NCBI RefSeq assembly: GCF_001077815.2 | Contig: NZ_CP011310.1 | Location: 558,001-622,000 of the forward strand | Reading direction: 5' to 3' | Source of the DNA: Aurantiacibacter atlanticus | GTDB taxonomy: Bacteria; Pseudomonadota; Alphaproteobacteria; Sphingomonadales; Sphingomonadaceae | DNA length: 64,000 nucleotides | Shown: positions 23,825 through 27,812 of the stretch, one piece after another | How the letters are laid out: each line of letters starts with the position of its first letter | How positions within the stretch are numbered: position 1 is the stretch's first letter | Made by a program: the position numbers and the translations under genes | Notes under the pieces: generated by a model | The model's input: the letters and a program-made list of their open reading frames with translations, nothing else | Databases searched by the model: none | What the model was told of the DNA's origin: nothing

Positions 23825-25156
23825 TCAAATCCGGCGAACGGCCGGCTTGCTCCTTTGGGAGAGCATCAATTCGGTCATGGCCCAGACCATCGCGTCGGCC
23901 CGGTCAGGGCTATTGCCCGGCCCTTCGTAAGAGCCGCCTGTCATTATTCCGCACAGCTGGTCTTCCAGACTGGCGAACTGGCCGACATGGCGGACGCGGC
24001 CCGTTTCGTAGAGCGCGGCAACCGGCTCTGCGCGGGCTGATTTGCCGCGGCTGGCGTGGACCAGCCTGATCGGCATCTGGCAGTCGGCGGCGCGCAGCAC
24101 GCTCGCCACCATGTCGCCGCCCTGATTGGCCTCCGCGATCACGCGGTCCGCCTTCCATTCCGCACATATGGCGGCGACCTTGCTTGCCCAGCGTTCCGGA
24201 CTGGCCCCGCCGATGGAAGCATCGGCCAGGACATGGCCGTTGCCATCGGCGCAGATGCCGGCCACCACGATACCGCATTCGTCGCCGCGCGCCGAAGCTG
24301 GGGGATCGACCCCTACCACGATGCGCACCATGTCTTCGAGGCAGGCGGGCAAGCGGCATCGTTCAAGCAATGACCGGGTCCACAAGGCACCTTCGATATC
24401 GGTCAGCAATTCGCCATCGAGTTCCTGCCGCCCCAGCGCGCTGGAGCCATATTGCGCATGCATCGAGCGCACAAAGCGTGACGGAAGATTGTGCGCATTG
24501 TCCATCGTGCGCCCGCGTGTCAGCACTGCATCGCCCTTGTCGGCTTCTGCGAACAGGCGCTGCACCAGCGGCACGGCGCGCGGCGTCGTGGTGGCAAGAG
24601 CCTGCGGCAGTTCGCCGAGGCGCAGGCCCATCTGCAAATTGTCCCATGCCTGTGCCGCCCGGTCCGAAGAATTATCCCATTTGCCGATTTCATCGCACCA
24701 GGCATGCGAATGTTGCGGACCGCGCAAGCTTTCCGGTTCACCTGCCGTATATAGCGTTGCCTGCGCGCCATTGGGCCAGACCAGCCTTCGGCGCGAAGCT
24801 TCGAACAGCGGCCGCGCGCCGCGGCCATGCACCGACATGATGCCGCTTTCGCCATCGACCATCACGGCGCGCGCTTCGGTCAGCGAACTGGCGACAAGCG
24901 CGATACGTGAACGTGGATTGCTATATGCAATATTGCGCACCCATTCAGCGCCCGTGCGGGTCTTGCCGAAGCCGCGTCCGGCGCAGACCATCCAGTTACG
25001 CCATTCACCCCGCGGGGGCATTTGTTCGGGGCGTGCCCAGAAGGGCCAATGTGCCTCCAGCTTACGGCGTTCATCTTCGGATAGTTGGGCGAGAAGAGCG
25101 TAGCAATCGGGGGGTTCCAGGCCGACAATAAATTGACGGTGATCGCTCGTCTTCAT
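23825..25156 (-). CDS. GTA large terminase (gp2)
   Basis: 443 residues. The packaging ATPase has Walker A AGRGFGKT at residues 59-66 and Walker B acidic pair Asp155-Glu156 in HAWCDEIGKW. The C-terminal nuclease has the first metal Asp in VVGVDPPAS, with later acidic positions near NSPDRADAMVWA. It cuts and pumps about headful lengths of chromosomal DNA into the GTA head. It overlaps gp1 by ATGA. Confidence 0.95.
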   Translation of the reverse strand: MKTSDHRQFIVGLEPPDCYALLAQLSEDERRKLEAHWPFWARPEQMPPRGEWRNWMVCAGRGFGKTRTGAEWVRNIAYSNPRSRIALVASSLTEARAVMVDGESGIMSVHGRGARPLFEASRRRLVWPNGAQATLYTAGEPESLRGPQHSHAWCDEIGKWDNSSDRAAQAWDNLQMGLRLGELPQALATTTPRAVPLVQRLFAEADKGDAVLTRGRTMDNAHNLPSRFVRSMHAQYGSSALGRQELDGELLTDIEGALWTRSLLERCRLPACLEDMVRIVVGVDPPASARGDECGIVVAGICADGNGHVLADASIGGASPERWASKVAAICAEWKADRVIAEANQGGDMVASVLRAADCQMPIRLVHASRGKSARAEPVAALYETGRVRHVGQFASLEDQLCGIMTGGSYEGPGNSPDRADAMVWAMTELMLSQRSKPAVRRI

Positions 25157-25632
25157 TGCGGACTGGCGACCTTGTCCTGCTCCTCCGCCTGCATCTGCTT
25201 CATGGCAGCATCGCGCTTGCGCATGAGGTCAATTTTCGCATTGAGCGATTCCAGCACGCTTTCTTCGTCCACTTCATCCTGCAAGGCCCGCTGGTGCGCC
25301 ACCGTGTCCCGATGAAGGGTGAGCAGGCGCAGCGCGTTGGCGATGTCGAACTTGTTGTCATCCTTGCCCGTGCCCGCCCGCAGGCGGTGCAGCGTTTCCA
25401 TTTCCAGATGCTCGTATCCTTCGATCAGAGCCGCATTCCAGGCGGCGCGGAATTCGGGGTCGAGACGCCTTGTCTTATAAGCCCGGCTGGTAGACGCGCC
25501 TGACATGCGTGCGGCTTCTGAAACATTGGACGTTTCAGCCAACGTATCGAGAAACAGACCGCGCCAGTGACGATCGATATCGGGTCTCTCGCCAATTCTT
25601 TGCGTTGCTCGTAGTTTTATCTGGGTGCCCAT
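25153..25632 (-). CDS. GTA small terminase (gp1)
   Basis: 159 residues. An HTH-like segment ETSNVSEAARMSGASTSRAYKTR near residues 31-53 and a C-terminal coiled coil (EESVLESLNAKIDLMRKRDAAMKQMQ) match small terminase subunits, which load DNA onto the large subunit. In GTAs the sequence specificity is low, which lets random host DNA be packaged. It is the first gene of the cluster, with a structured leader upstream. Confidence 0.85.
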   Translation of the reverse strand: MGTQIKLRATQRIGERPDIDRHWRGLFLDTLAETSNVSEAARMSGASTSRAYKTRRLDPEFRAAWNAALIEGYEHLEMETLHRLRAGTGKDDNKFDIANALRLLTLHRDTVAHQRALQDEVDEESVLESLNAKIDLMRKRDAAMKQMQAEEQDKVASPQ

Positions 25633-25671
25633 CCTGTGAAAATCCCCGTTTTCGGTGGTGCGAGTTGCAAC

Positions 25672-25706
25672 GAAAAAAGGGCGGACCCTTCAAGAAAGGG
25701 CCGCCT
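25672..25706 (-). terminator. Intrinsic terminator in the GTA leader, before gp1
   Basis: On the minus strand GGCGGCCCTT pairs with AAGGG-u-CCGCC (25705-25680, one bulge, loop TCTTG), followed by C and six T (25678-25673). The form is canonical, and it points into the GTA cluster 40 bases before the gp1 start at 25632. No minus-strand gene lies upstream within reach, so it seems to act on the GTA transcript itself. Confidence 0.8.
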
Positions 25707-25736
25707 TGGCGACTCGGTTTTTTGCGATGTTCCGTT

Positions 25737-25765
25737 TCTCTAACCAAAAAGCGTCACAATGTCAA
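25737..25765 (-). promoter_or_regulatory. Candidate sigma-70 promoter of the GTA cluster
   Basis: On the minus strand a perfect -35 TTGACA (25765-25760) is followed after 17 bases by a weak -10 TAGAGA (25742-25737). Transcription would begin near 25730, just before the leader terminator. The weak -10 suggests need for an activator. A CtrA-like TTAACC motif is only partly matched (CTAACCAA, 25740-25747). Confidence 0.55.
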
Positions 25766-25860
25766 CAATAAAGTACCAAATAGGTAATATCGTAGGACTT
25801 GCGCCTTGGCAATGGCTGGCCTAGTTGCGCATTTTCCTCTGCGGGACGGGAATTTTACGT

Positions 25861-26549: not shown

Positions 26550-27812
26550 CTAGATAATTCCGACTGCCTTGCCAGCCCGTTCGAACATGTCGAGAATCTC
26601 GCCCACTTCTTCATCGCTGTGCTCTGCGCATAGCGAGCAGCGTAGCAATGTCATATTGGCAGGCGTTGCTGGCGGCCTTGCCAGATTGACGTAGAGCCCT
26701 TCCTGCAGCAGCGCGCTCCACATGGCGGCACCACGTTCCAGATCGGGCATCAGGACGGCCACGATGGCACTTTGCGGCTCATCGGTACCAAGTTCAAAGC
26801 CGAGGCTCTTCAGACCGCCATGCAGTCGTCCTGAATTCTTCCAGAGATGCGCGCGCTTTTCCGTCGCGGTCATCAGTTTGCGGATTGATGTTGCCGCCGT
26901 TGCGACCACCGAAGGCGGCAGACTTGCGGTAAAGACATAGGGGCGGCAAACTAGGCGTAATATCTCGAACTTGGGATGGTTCGACACGCAGAAACCACCA
27001 ACCGTGCCAACGCTTTTCGAAAAGGTGCCGATGATGAAATCGACATCATCCAATACGCCAGCATCTTCCACAACACCGCGACCGTGTTCACCGATGAAGC
27101 CCATGGAATGCGCTTCGTCCACCAGCACCATTGCGCCATTGTCCTTGGCGACCTTCACCATTTCCTTCAGCGGAGCGATATCGCCCAGCATCGAATAGAC
27201 GCCTTCAAGCACCACCAGCTTTCCCGCGCCTTCGGGAATGCGCTTCAGGCGCTTTTCCATGGCTTCTATGTCATTATGCTTGAATGGCACGATCTCGGCA
27301 TTGCCCATCGCGCAGCCATCCCAAATGCTGGCATGGCTATCGATATCGAGCACGACGTAATCGCCTTTGCCAGCGACGGTTGAGATGATCCCCAGATTGG
27401 CTTGATAGCCGGTCGAAAAGACCATGGCGTGTTCCATGTCATAGAACTCGCGCAGCGCATCCTCGCATTCCTTGTGGCCCTGATAGGTGCCGTTGAGAAC
27501 GCGGCTGCCCGTGGTGCCGGATCCGAAATCCGCCAATGCCTGTGTTCCAGCTGCTATCACATCGGGATCGAAGGTCATGCCCATATAATTATAGGTGCCG
27601 AGCAATATGGTCTCACGCCCGTTGCATATCGCCCGCGTGGGCGAAAGCACCTGCTCCATCACCAGCGAAAACGGGTCGTCCACGCCGCTCGCCAGCAAGT
27701 TGGTGCGCATGGCGATTGTAGAATCGAACTTGGTGAACAGGTCAGTAGCTTCACCAGCCGCAACATCGGTTTCCCCAGCCAATTGTCCTGTAGACGCGCC
27801 TGCTCCGGTCAT
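26550..27812 (-). CDS. spt: Serine palmitoyltransferase
   Basis: 420 residues. It condenses serine with palmitoyl-CoA or acyl-ACP to 3-ketodihydrosphingosine, the first step of sphingolipid synthesis. PLP residues correspond to the Sphingomonas paucimobilis enzyme with an offset of one: His160, Asp232, His235 and Schiff-base Lys266 (GTFSKSVG). Related alpha-oxoamine synthases (KBL, ALAS, BioF) share the fold, but the length and the adjacent acyl carrier protein support SPT. It starts eight bases after the ACP stop. Confidence 0.94.
   Translation of the reverse strand: MTGAGASTGQLAGETDVAAGEATDLFTKFDSTIAMRTNLLASGVDDPFSLVMEQVLSPTRAICNGRETILLGTYNYMGMTFDPDVIAAGTQALADFGSGTTGSRVLNGTYQGHKECEDALREFYDMEHAMVFSTGYQANLGIISTVAGKGDYVVLDIDSHASIWDGCAMGNAEIVPFKHNDIEAMEKRLKRIPEGAGKLVVLEGVYSMLGDIAPLKEMVKVAKDNGAMVLVDEAHSMGFIGEHGRGVVEDAGVLDDVDFIIGTFSKSVGTVGGFCVSNHPKFEILRLVCRPYVFTASLPPSVVATAATSIRKLMTATEKRAHLWKNSGRLHGGLKSLGFELGTDEPQSAIVAVLMPDLERGAAMWSALLQEGLYVNLARPPATPANMTLLRCSLCAEHSDEEVGEILDMFERAGKAVGII

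Follow-up and report, generated by a model that had tools for sequence, protein, structure and literature searches.

GTA producers die, and it therefore matters what holds the GTA operon shut. We addressed this question at an RcGTA-like cluster of Aurantiacibacter atlanticus, within a window of 64,000 nucleotides (contig NZ_CP011310.1, positions 558,001 to 622,000) whose own numbering is used below. The cluster was recognized by matches to terminase, portal, protease, capsid, non-contractile tail sheath and an Rcc01698-like protein. It begins on the minus strand with gp1 (25153..25632, ATG at 25632), an open reading frame with no Pfam match whose relatives in the genus precede the terminase, and continues with the large terminase (23825..25156, minus strand; PF17289, PF03237). 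The original prediction had placed a strong terminator in the leader of gp1 and proposed that it gates the cluster, i.e., that most transcripts stop there unless an antiterminator, a leader-binding protein or a phage-Q-like factor acts; such a gate, it was suggested, could account for the small share of cells that make particles.

The leader hairpin GGCGGCCCTTTCTTGAAGGGTCCGCC spans 25705-25680 on the minus strand and is followed by a C and by TTTTTT at 25678-25673, with 40 nt from the end of the T-run to the gp1 ATG at 25632, exactly as predicted. Folded alone, hairpin plus tail (35 nt) reached -18 kcal/mol compared with a shuffle mean of -9.6 (z -3.34, none of 200 shuffles equal); the fold of the entire 103 nt up to gp1 was not unusual (z -0.61). 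Its sequence is that of an intrinsic (Rho-independent) terminator, i.e., a G+C-rich stem-loop with a U-tract directly after it, and we annotate 25673..25705 (minus strand) as a putative leader terminator with a U6 tract on the basis of sequence, fold, conservation and covariation. A consensus scan of 20-32 kb gave 15 terminator-like sites, with 11.4 (sd 3.4) expected from shuffles, and a second scan of both strands of the 64 kb (dG ≤ -13, at least five T in eight, no shuffle control) gave 28 sites, among which the leader hairpin ranked eighth at -17.0. As terminator-like sites are about as many here as in shuffles, the window alone is no proof of a terminator, and the proof that the leader hairpin exceeds chance is comparative.

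We therefore compared GTA leaders among relatives. Relatives of gp1 were sought in 40 genomes of the GTDB genus, which yielded 35 readable leaders; in the other five genomes the contig begins inside the leader (G014), gp1 lies at the contig end (G019), or gp1 matches were only weak and partial (G015, G020, G038). A wider sample was drawn from the matches of a sequence model, R1, built from 30 uninterrupted genus promoters. It added 73 leaders from other genera, chosen via the promoter model, and gp1 or terminase was found downstream in 71 of them (none for L145 and L163). Excluded from the resulting set of 108 were duplicates, loci in which the promoter pattern was not matched (L187-L190, L233) and loci in which no GTA gene was found downstream within the stretch (L205, L218, L234, L173, L174, L176). 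As a leader hairpin we counted a structure with dG ≤ -13 kcal/mol, at least six pairs and TTT within 1 nt, located in the first 120 nt from the predicted start.

Such a terminator-like hairpin occurs in 73 of the 108 leaders and in 18 of 34 genera, i.e., in 34 of 35 readable leaders within the genus and in 39 of 73 elsewhere. By the same rule, hairpins were found in only 12 of 324 dinucleotide shuffles and in 3 of 108 stretches at +200 to +320. Antisense leaders scored 24 of 108, a count that is raised because the hairpin reads both ways. The T-tract begins within the interval +45 to +82, counted from the predicted start, in all 73 hairpin leaders. Its initial run is three T long in 22 leaders, four in 15, five in 28 and six in 8. 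The hairpin sequence itself varies strongly from genus to genus. These comparisons indicate that the GTA leader terminator goes beyond chance, and they support the predicted strong terminator well. A literature search, thin on subscription journals, returned no description of a GTA leader terminator in sphingomonads.

Conserved pairing of the stem across sphingomonad GTA leaders, for which the original prediction had called, was analyzed in an alignment of 40 hand-chosen hairpins (28 distinct ones of the 34 in the genus and 12 of the 39 others). The stem pairs covary: both-sided changes occurred in seven of ten pairs, and 87% of cells were paired. We counted 28 cells with both-sided change compared with 8.6 (sd 2.7) after shuffling, none of 500 shuffles being as high, and with 8-16 in slid versions of the alignment; kinship was ignored in these counts. 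RNAalifold, run on the same alignment, reported six pairs, four of them with double changes, and a small covariation term of -0.19.

The hairpin stands behind a conserved promoter. The perfect -35 box claimed earlier, TTGACA at 25760..25765 on the minus strand, was confirmed by direct reading and shows no variation in 30 aligned uninterrupted genus promoters, which over 98 positions have a mean column identity of 82%. At 17 bp from it lies the predicted -10 box TAGAGA (25737..25742, minus strand); it belongs to a conserved TTAGAGA and is a poor TATAAT match (three of six consensus positions at this spacing), and a consensus promoter scanner did not list this promoter. Readings as a sigma54 or an EcfG promoter were judged by eye and dropped. 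The spacer holds a conserved near-dyad (C/T)GT-N-ACG with a free centre base (25752..25758, minus strand), and the first transcribed bases, predicted +1 to +21, form a conserved initial element (25710..25730, minus strand), the start site being a prediction. The promoter core recurs at Novosphingobium, Erythrobacter and Citromicrobium loci that were located via gp1 and not via the promoter. The GTA promoter is conserved over a wider range than the leader hairpin. Neither this wide conservation of promoter and first transcribed bases nor the repeat shared with gafZ, the GANTC site or the relatives lacking the hairpin figured in the original prediction.

A gate of this kind would need a partner, and a candidate is encoded elsewhere in the genome. 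A GafZ homologue (DUF6456) lies at C1:1722040-1722420 (E 1.1e-38), and GafZ was found in 39 of 40 genus genomes, the one genome without it being 69% complete. Among 297 genomes of the order, the promoter element was found in 203 under strict promoter filters and GafZ in 242; as raw counts that ignore kinship, 199 genomes had both, 4 the element alone (G208, G212, G216, G312), 43 GafZ alone and 51 neither. DUF6456 is also the annotation carried by GafA homologues, as given in PMC9638019 and PMC9765227. The GafZ family search produced matches in Caulobacter as well. By sequence, this genome has both a DUF6456 homologue and a predicted terminator inside the GTA transcription unit, two of the marks of GafZ-type antitermination.

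In phage lambda, the promoter pR' is followed by a leader and by the terminator tR' ahead of the late genes, and a dedicated antiterminator, Q, serves this switch; the lambda leader is longer than the GTA leader here. We think it probable that the GTA cluster is governed by a phage-style late switch in which the leader hairpin serves as an intrinsic terminator kept by selection and the antiterminator GafZ lets transcription through. Polymerase would initiate at the conserved sigma70-type promoter, and most polymerases would halt about 55 nt after the start, at the leader hairpin. GafZ would join the polymerase at the promoter and carry it past the hairpin, so that the GTA operon (gp1, terminase, portal, capsid, tail) would be made only with GafZ, much as late genes depend on Q at pR'/tR'. 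These functional steps, i.e., termination at the hairpin in the cell, action of the genome's own GafZ at this locus and the manner of GafZ loading, are what we infer for this genus. As a terminator the hairpin is ordinary; its place, its conservation and its partner gene may represent a new form of GafZ-type GTA control. A leader terminator kept in many genera, together with an antiterminator gene, offers a simple gate that can be tested; it also suggests retention of the late switch by a domesticated phage. Moreover, the conserved promoter element offers defined bases at which GafZ loading and a link to CcrM and GcrA (see below) could be tested.

The proposed switch builds on Caulobacter crescentus, where, according to PMC11150451, GafZ is an experimentally supported antiterminator with which some polymerase passes both terGTA and E. 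coli rrnB T1, and which apparently moves along with polymerase and Nus factors. Both systems have an RcGTA-type cluster, a GafZ homologue and a terminator inside the transcription unit. They differ in the terminator, since Caulobacter terGTA is described as three 150-bp repeats after the first gene, whereas a simple hairpin precedes the first gene here. Caulobacter GafZ requires an element between -35 and -10, where an inverted repeat is found (PMC11150451); the short near-dyad at 25752..25758 takes the same place as this ZBE and, by position alone, is a weakly indicated candidate for a GafZ site. The promoters differ as well: in Caulobacter the -35 is degenerate and both GafY and IHF are needed, whereas the -35 here is consensus. 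A near-consensus -35 made the Caulobacter promoter about six times weaker, yet active with or without GafYZ (PMC11150451). In the simplest view, initiation in this genus would be less restricted than in Caulobacter, and the block would lie at elongation, where GafZ would lift it. With lambda, the shared layout comprises promoter, leader terminator and antiterminator, but GafZ is described in PMC11150451 as having no sequence or predicted structural similarity to known antiterminators. For Rhodobacter capsulatus RcGTA, PMC9638019 reports that the C-terminal region of GafA binds a promoter fragment with -35, -10 and TSS, which puts a DUF6456 protein at these elements. In contrast to the situation here, GafA is a single polypeptide acting through the omega subunit, and the main text of that report does not use the word "terminator".

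A terminator in this position might instead be a passive insulator that damps promoter leak or upstream read-through and is simply overwhelmed upon activation, with no antiterminator acting. The gene layout gives this reading some room. The earlier claim that no minus-strand gene lies upstream holds locally, as the adjoining gene is divergent (VTT-like, plus strand from 25861, its VTT domain match just below the cut-off), but about 0.8 kb upstream a minus-strand aminotransferase gene (26550-27812) is directed at the GTA cluster, and neither of the two window scans lists a terminator at its end. Some leaders without a hairpin fit an insulator as well. However, an insulator would be expected upstream of the promoter, whereas the T-tract lies downstream of it in every one of the 73 hairpin leaders; GafZ is moreover conserved, and its Caulobacter relative antiterminates. 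We hence regard a passive insulator as unlikely.

That the locus serves to make the terminated RNA (about 57 nt), acting as a small regulatory RNA, seems very improbable to us: the consensus -35 and the conservation of the first 21 nt would suit it, but no Rfam family was matched, sequence and length vary between about +22 and the stem, and the conserved 5' part is retained in leaders without the hairpin.

We give as little credit to a cis-acting RNA attenuator, riboswitch or leader peptide, in which an alternative fold or a translated upstream open reading frame would open the hairpin. One possible competitor for the 5' arm of the terminator in the window is the 5-bp hairpin GUCGC/GCGGC, but it is no better than shuffles. 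Across the 73 hairpin leaders, folding of the stretch that ends at mid-hairpin is weaker than in shuffles (mean z +0.59, sd 0.72), whereas the whole leader is strongly folded (mean z -3.68). Candidate upstream reading frames (start more than 20 nt before the T-tract, at least five codons, stop within the 120 nt scanned) occur in only 8 of the 73. The Rfam search returned no family at gathering scores, and we attributed to chance two weak matches that appeared below threshold when the E-value limit was relaxed. Leaders, Rfam, reading frames and fold tests thus revealed neither mutually exclusive conserved pairing nor a leader peptide, and with no excess of upstream pairing and few upstream reading frames an RNA attenuator is unlikely. 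Of the gates offered by the original prediction, the phage-Q-like factor fits best, given GafZ in 39 of 40 genomes and a Caulobacter homologue that antiterminates, and the attenuator is not supported. Hairpins at 5' ends can protect mRNAs, but that the leader hairpin acts in stabilizing or processing the GTA mRNA at its 5' end, with no termination, is hardly credible, because at least three T directly follow every counted hairpin (by definition), with five or six in 36 of the 73, and because the hairpin lies inside the leader and not at its 5' end.

The leader hairpin is absent from 35 of the 108 leaders although the promoter is mostly kept. In the 13 loci named Novosphingobium, no terminator was found between promoter and gp1; one of them, L118, shows two terminator-like matches, one upstream of the -35 and one inside gp1, and in another, L102, the pattern search found no promoter. 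Such Novosphingobium-like loci mostly retain TTGACA, which speaks against a plain trade-off between restricted initiation and a block at elongation. The promoter element and GafZ therefore cannot exist solely for the hairpin, and another block must exist where TTGACA is kept without it, perhaps the XRE-associated repeat described below. The single genus leader without a terminator, L025, retains the promoter and most of the initial element.

Outside the order, in other orders of the class, 36 genomes had a terminase match, and 20 of these were inspected. A T-run hairpin just before gp1 was seen by eye in L249, L257, L259 and L264, but in these 20 genomes there was no clear sense excess (20 sense versus 18 antisense hairpins with TTT, 8 versus 5 with at least five T in eight). 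In L249 and L259 a same-strand open frame ends upstream, and the hairpins may therefore end other genes. For both reasons we dropped the other-order hairpins as support for the proposed late switch.

A second layer of control is suggested by the gafZ loci. In all 39 of them a divergent XRE-type gene stands upstream of gafZ, 74-100% identical to the copy in the own genome, and 37 of the loci have TAACC-N5-GGTT upstream of gafZ. GafY, which in Caulobacter is an activator and not the antiterminator, was not found beside gafZ in these 39 loci. Extra DnaA_C (GafY-like) domains occur in four of 40 genomes (G005, G007, G035, G037), none adjoining gafZ, with the proviso that Pfam may miss GafY. A similar repeat precedes the GTA promoter: in the window, the imperfect inverted repeat TTACC-N5-GGTAC (25773..25787, minus strand; family form TAACC-N5-GGTTA) is a candidate operator on the strength of the repeat counts. 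In 98 of 103 GTA promoters ACC-N5-GG occurs in the 45 nt before the -35, compared with 6.6% of random windows, and its gap to the -35 is 10 bp in 87 of the 103; the fuller AACC-N5-GGTT is present in 27. The repeats before gafZ and before the GTA -35 are thus possibly a shared operator. The XRE repressor would probably keep gafZ off and, via the similar repeat, perhaps the GTA promoter too. In Caulobacter, the LexA-like repressor RogA is reported to bind a gafYZ promoter that holds GGAA-N4-TTCC repeats (PMC9632790).

The initial element also contains a CcrM-type motif, GAGTC at 25715-25711 on the minus strand. GANTC is found, at about +16, in 104 of 108 leaders, most non-genus ones having been selected by a model in which this site is included, and its N is free (T 53, G 41, A 9, C 1). 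The form YGAKTCG occurs in 87 of 108, at +15 in 84. In the sets chosen via gp1 alone, GANTC is present in 34 of 35 genus leaders and in 24 of 31 elsewhere, two more having no promoter found; one of the seven non-genus misses, L107, is misplaced, and the loci named Citromicrobium (L098, L114) lack GANTC. According to PMC7987155, the CcrM site to which GcrA responds has the form YGAKTCG/YGAKTCK, with Brevundimonas showing no clear preference for YGAKTCG. As at methylation-dependent GcrA/CcrM promoters, the GTA leaders carry GANTC, for the most part as YGAKTCG, no more than 40 bp from the predicted start. The genome encodes GcrA. The conserved GANTC suggests CcrM/GcrA control of the GTA promoter; alternatively, it could be a dyad for a binding protein, with no methylation involved. 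A hairpin CGAT...NTCG in the initial element was discarded by eye, as the N of GANTC varies without a matching change opposite.

From here one may speculate that RcGTA-type elements kept the ancestral phage late switch, with its late promoter, a leader terminator ahead of the terminase genes and an antiterminator that is today's GafZ, and that sphingomonads also wired it to the cell cycle via the GcrA-type CcrM site at about +15 of the GTA promoter, an idea we hold tentatively and consider rather doubtful. Particle production would then hinge on whether the GTA locus is replicated and methylated. In a 2022 comparative study (PMC9836097), the link between CtrA, CcrM methylation and the GTA cluster is called uninvestigated to its authors' knowledge. 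At 24 of the 39 gafZ loci YGAKTCG is likewise present upstream, within about 170 nt of the gene. The GTA promoter together with its initial element recurs as additional copies at L173, L174 and L176, in two genomes of other genera; no GTA gene was found nearby, and by eye they adjoin mpl-like, porin/transporter-like and tyrA-like genes.

In several relatives the promoter is interrupted. The sequence GGGTTTGTAAAAGACACAAACGCC in L005, L009, L016, L018 and L030 was at first read as an alternative promoter, i.e., as a sign of two promoter types; this reading was dropped because GGGTTTGTAAAAGACACAAACGCC belongs to a transposon of the IS1595 family, forming its right end, and this transposon splits promoter from leader. 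The right end precedes the leader in five genus genomes (G005, G017, G025, G027, G032); the family assignment comes from PF12762 (E 2.8e-33) in the one element tested. Where both ends were seen, the transposon has 25-bp inverted ends like GGCGATTATGTACTTTACAAACCCA with 0-4 mismatches to the best copy. It is flanked at the same promoter place by an 8-bp duplication, TAGAGAAA in G005, G017 and G032 and ACATAAGT in G027, while the contig of G025 holds the right end only. In a sixth genome, G015, the left end lies at the promoter with other DNA at the right. The inserted transposon thus separates the GTA promoter from leader and operon at the same place in at least five congeners and in some other genera (L165-L169 and L171, i.e., G017, G032, G005, G027, G015 and G025; L113; L178 and L181-L183).

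Exact matches to the end pattern numbered nine in the 40 genus genomes, all inside these elements, the pattern missing the variant ends of G017. In 397 family genomes there were nine matches in eight genomes: five at GTA promoters by script, L181 by eye, L179 probably, and L184 and L185 elsewhere. L181 was placed at the GTA promoter from its match to L113 and L114, and L113 and L181 possibly come from one genome. The transposon end as an operator shared with gafZ loci was rejected, with one weak match in 30 loci. The transposon carries further genes, e.g., one with a SocA/Panacea domain in G017, and GafZ of transposon-bearing genomes reaches 97% identity to that of relatives with an uninterrupted promoter.
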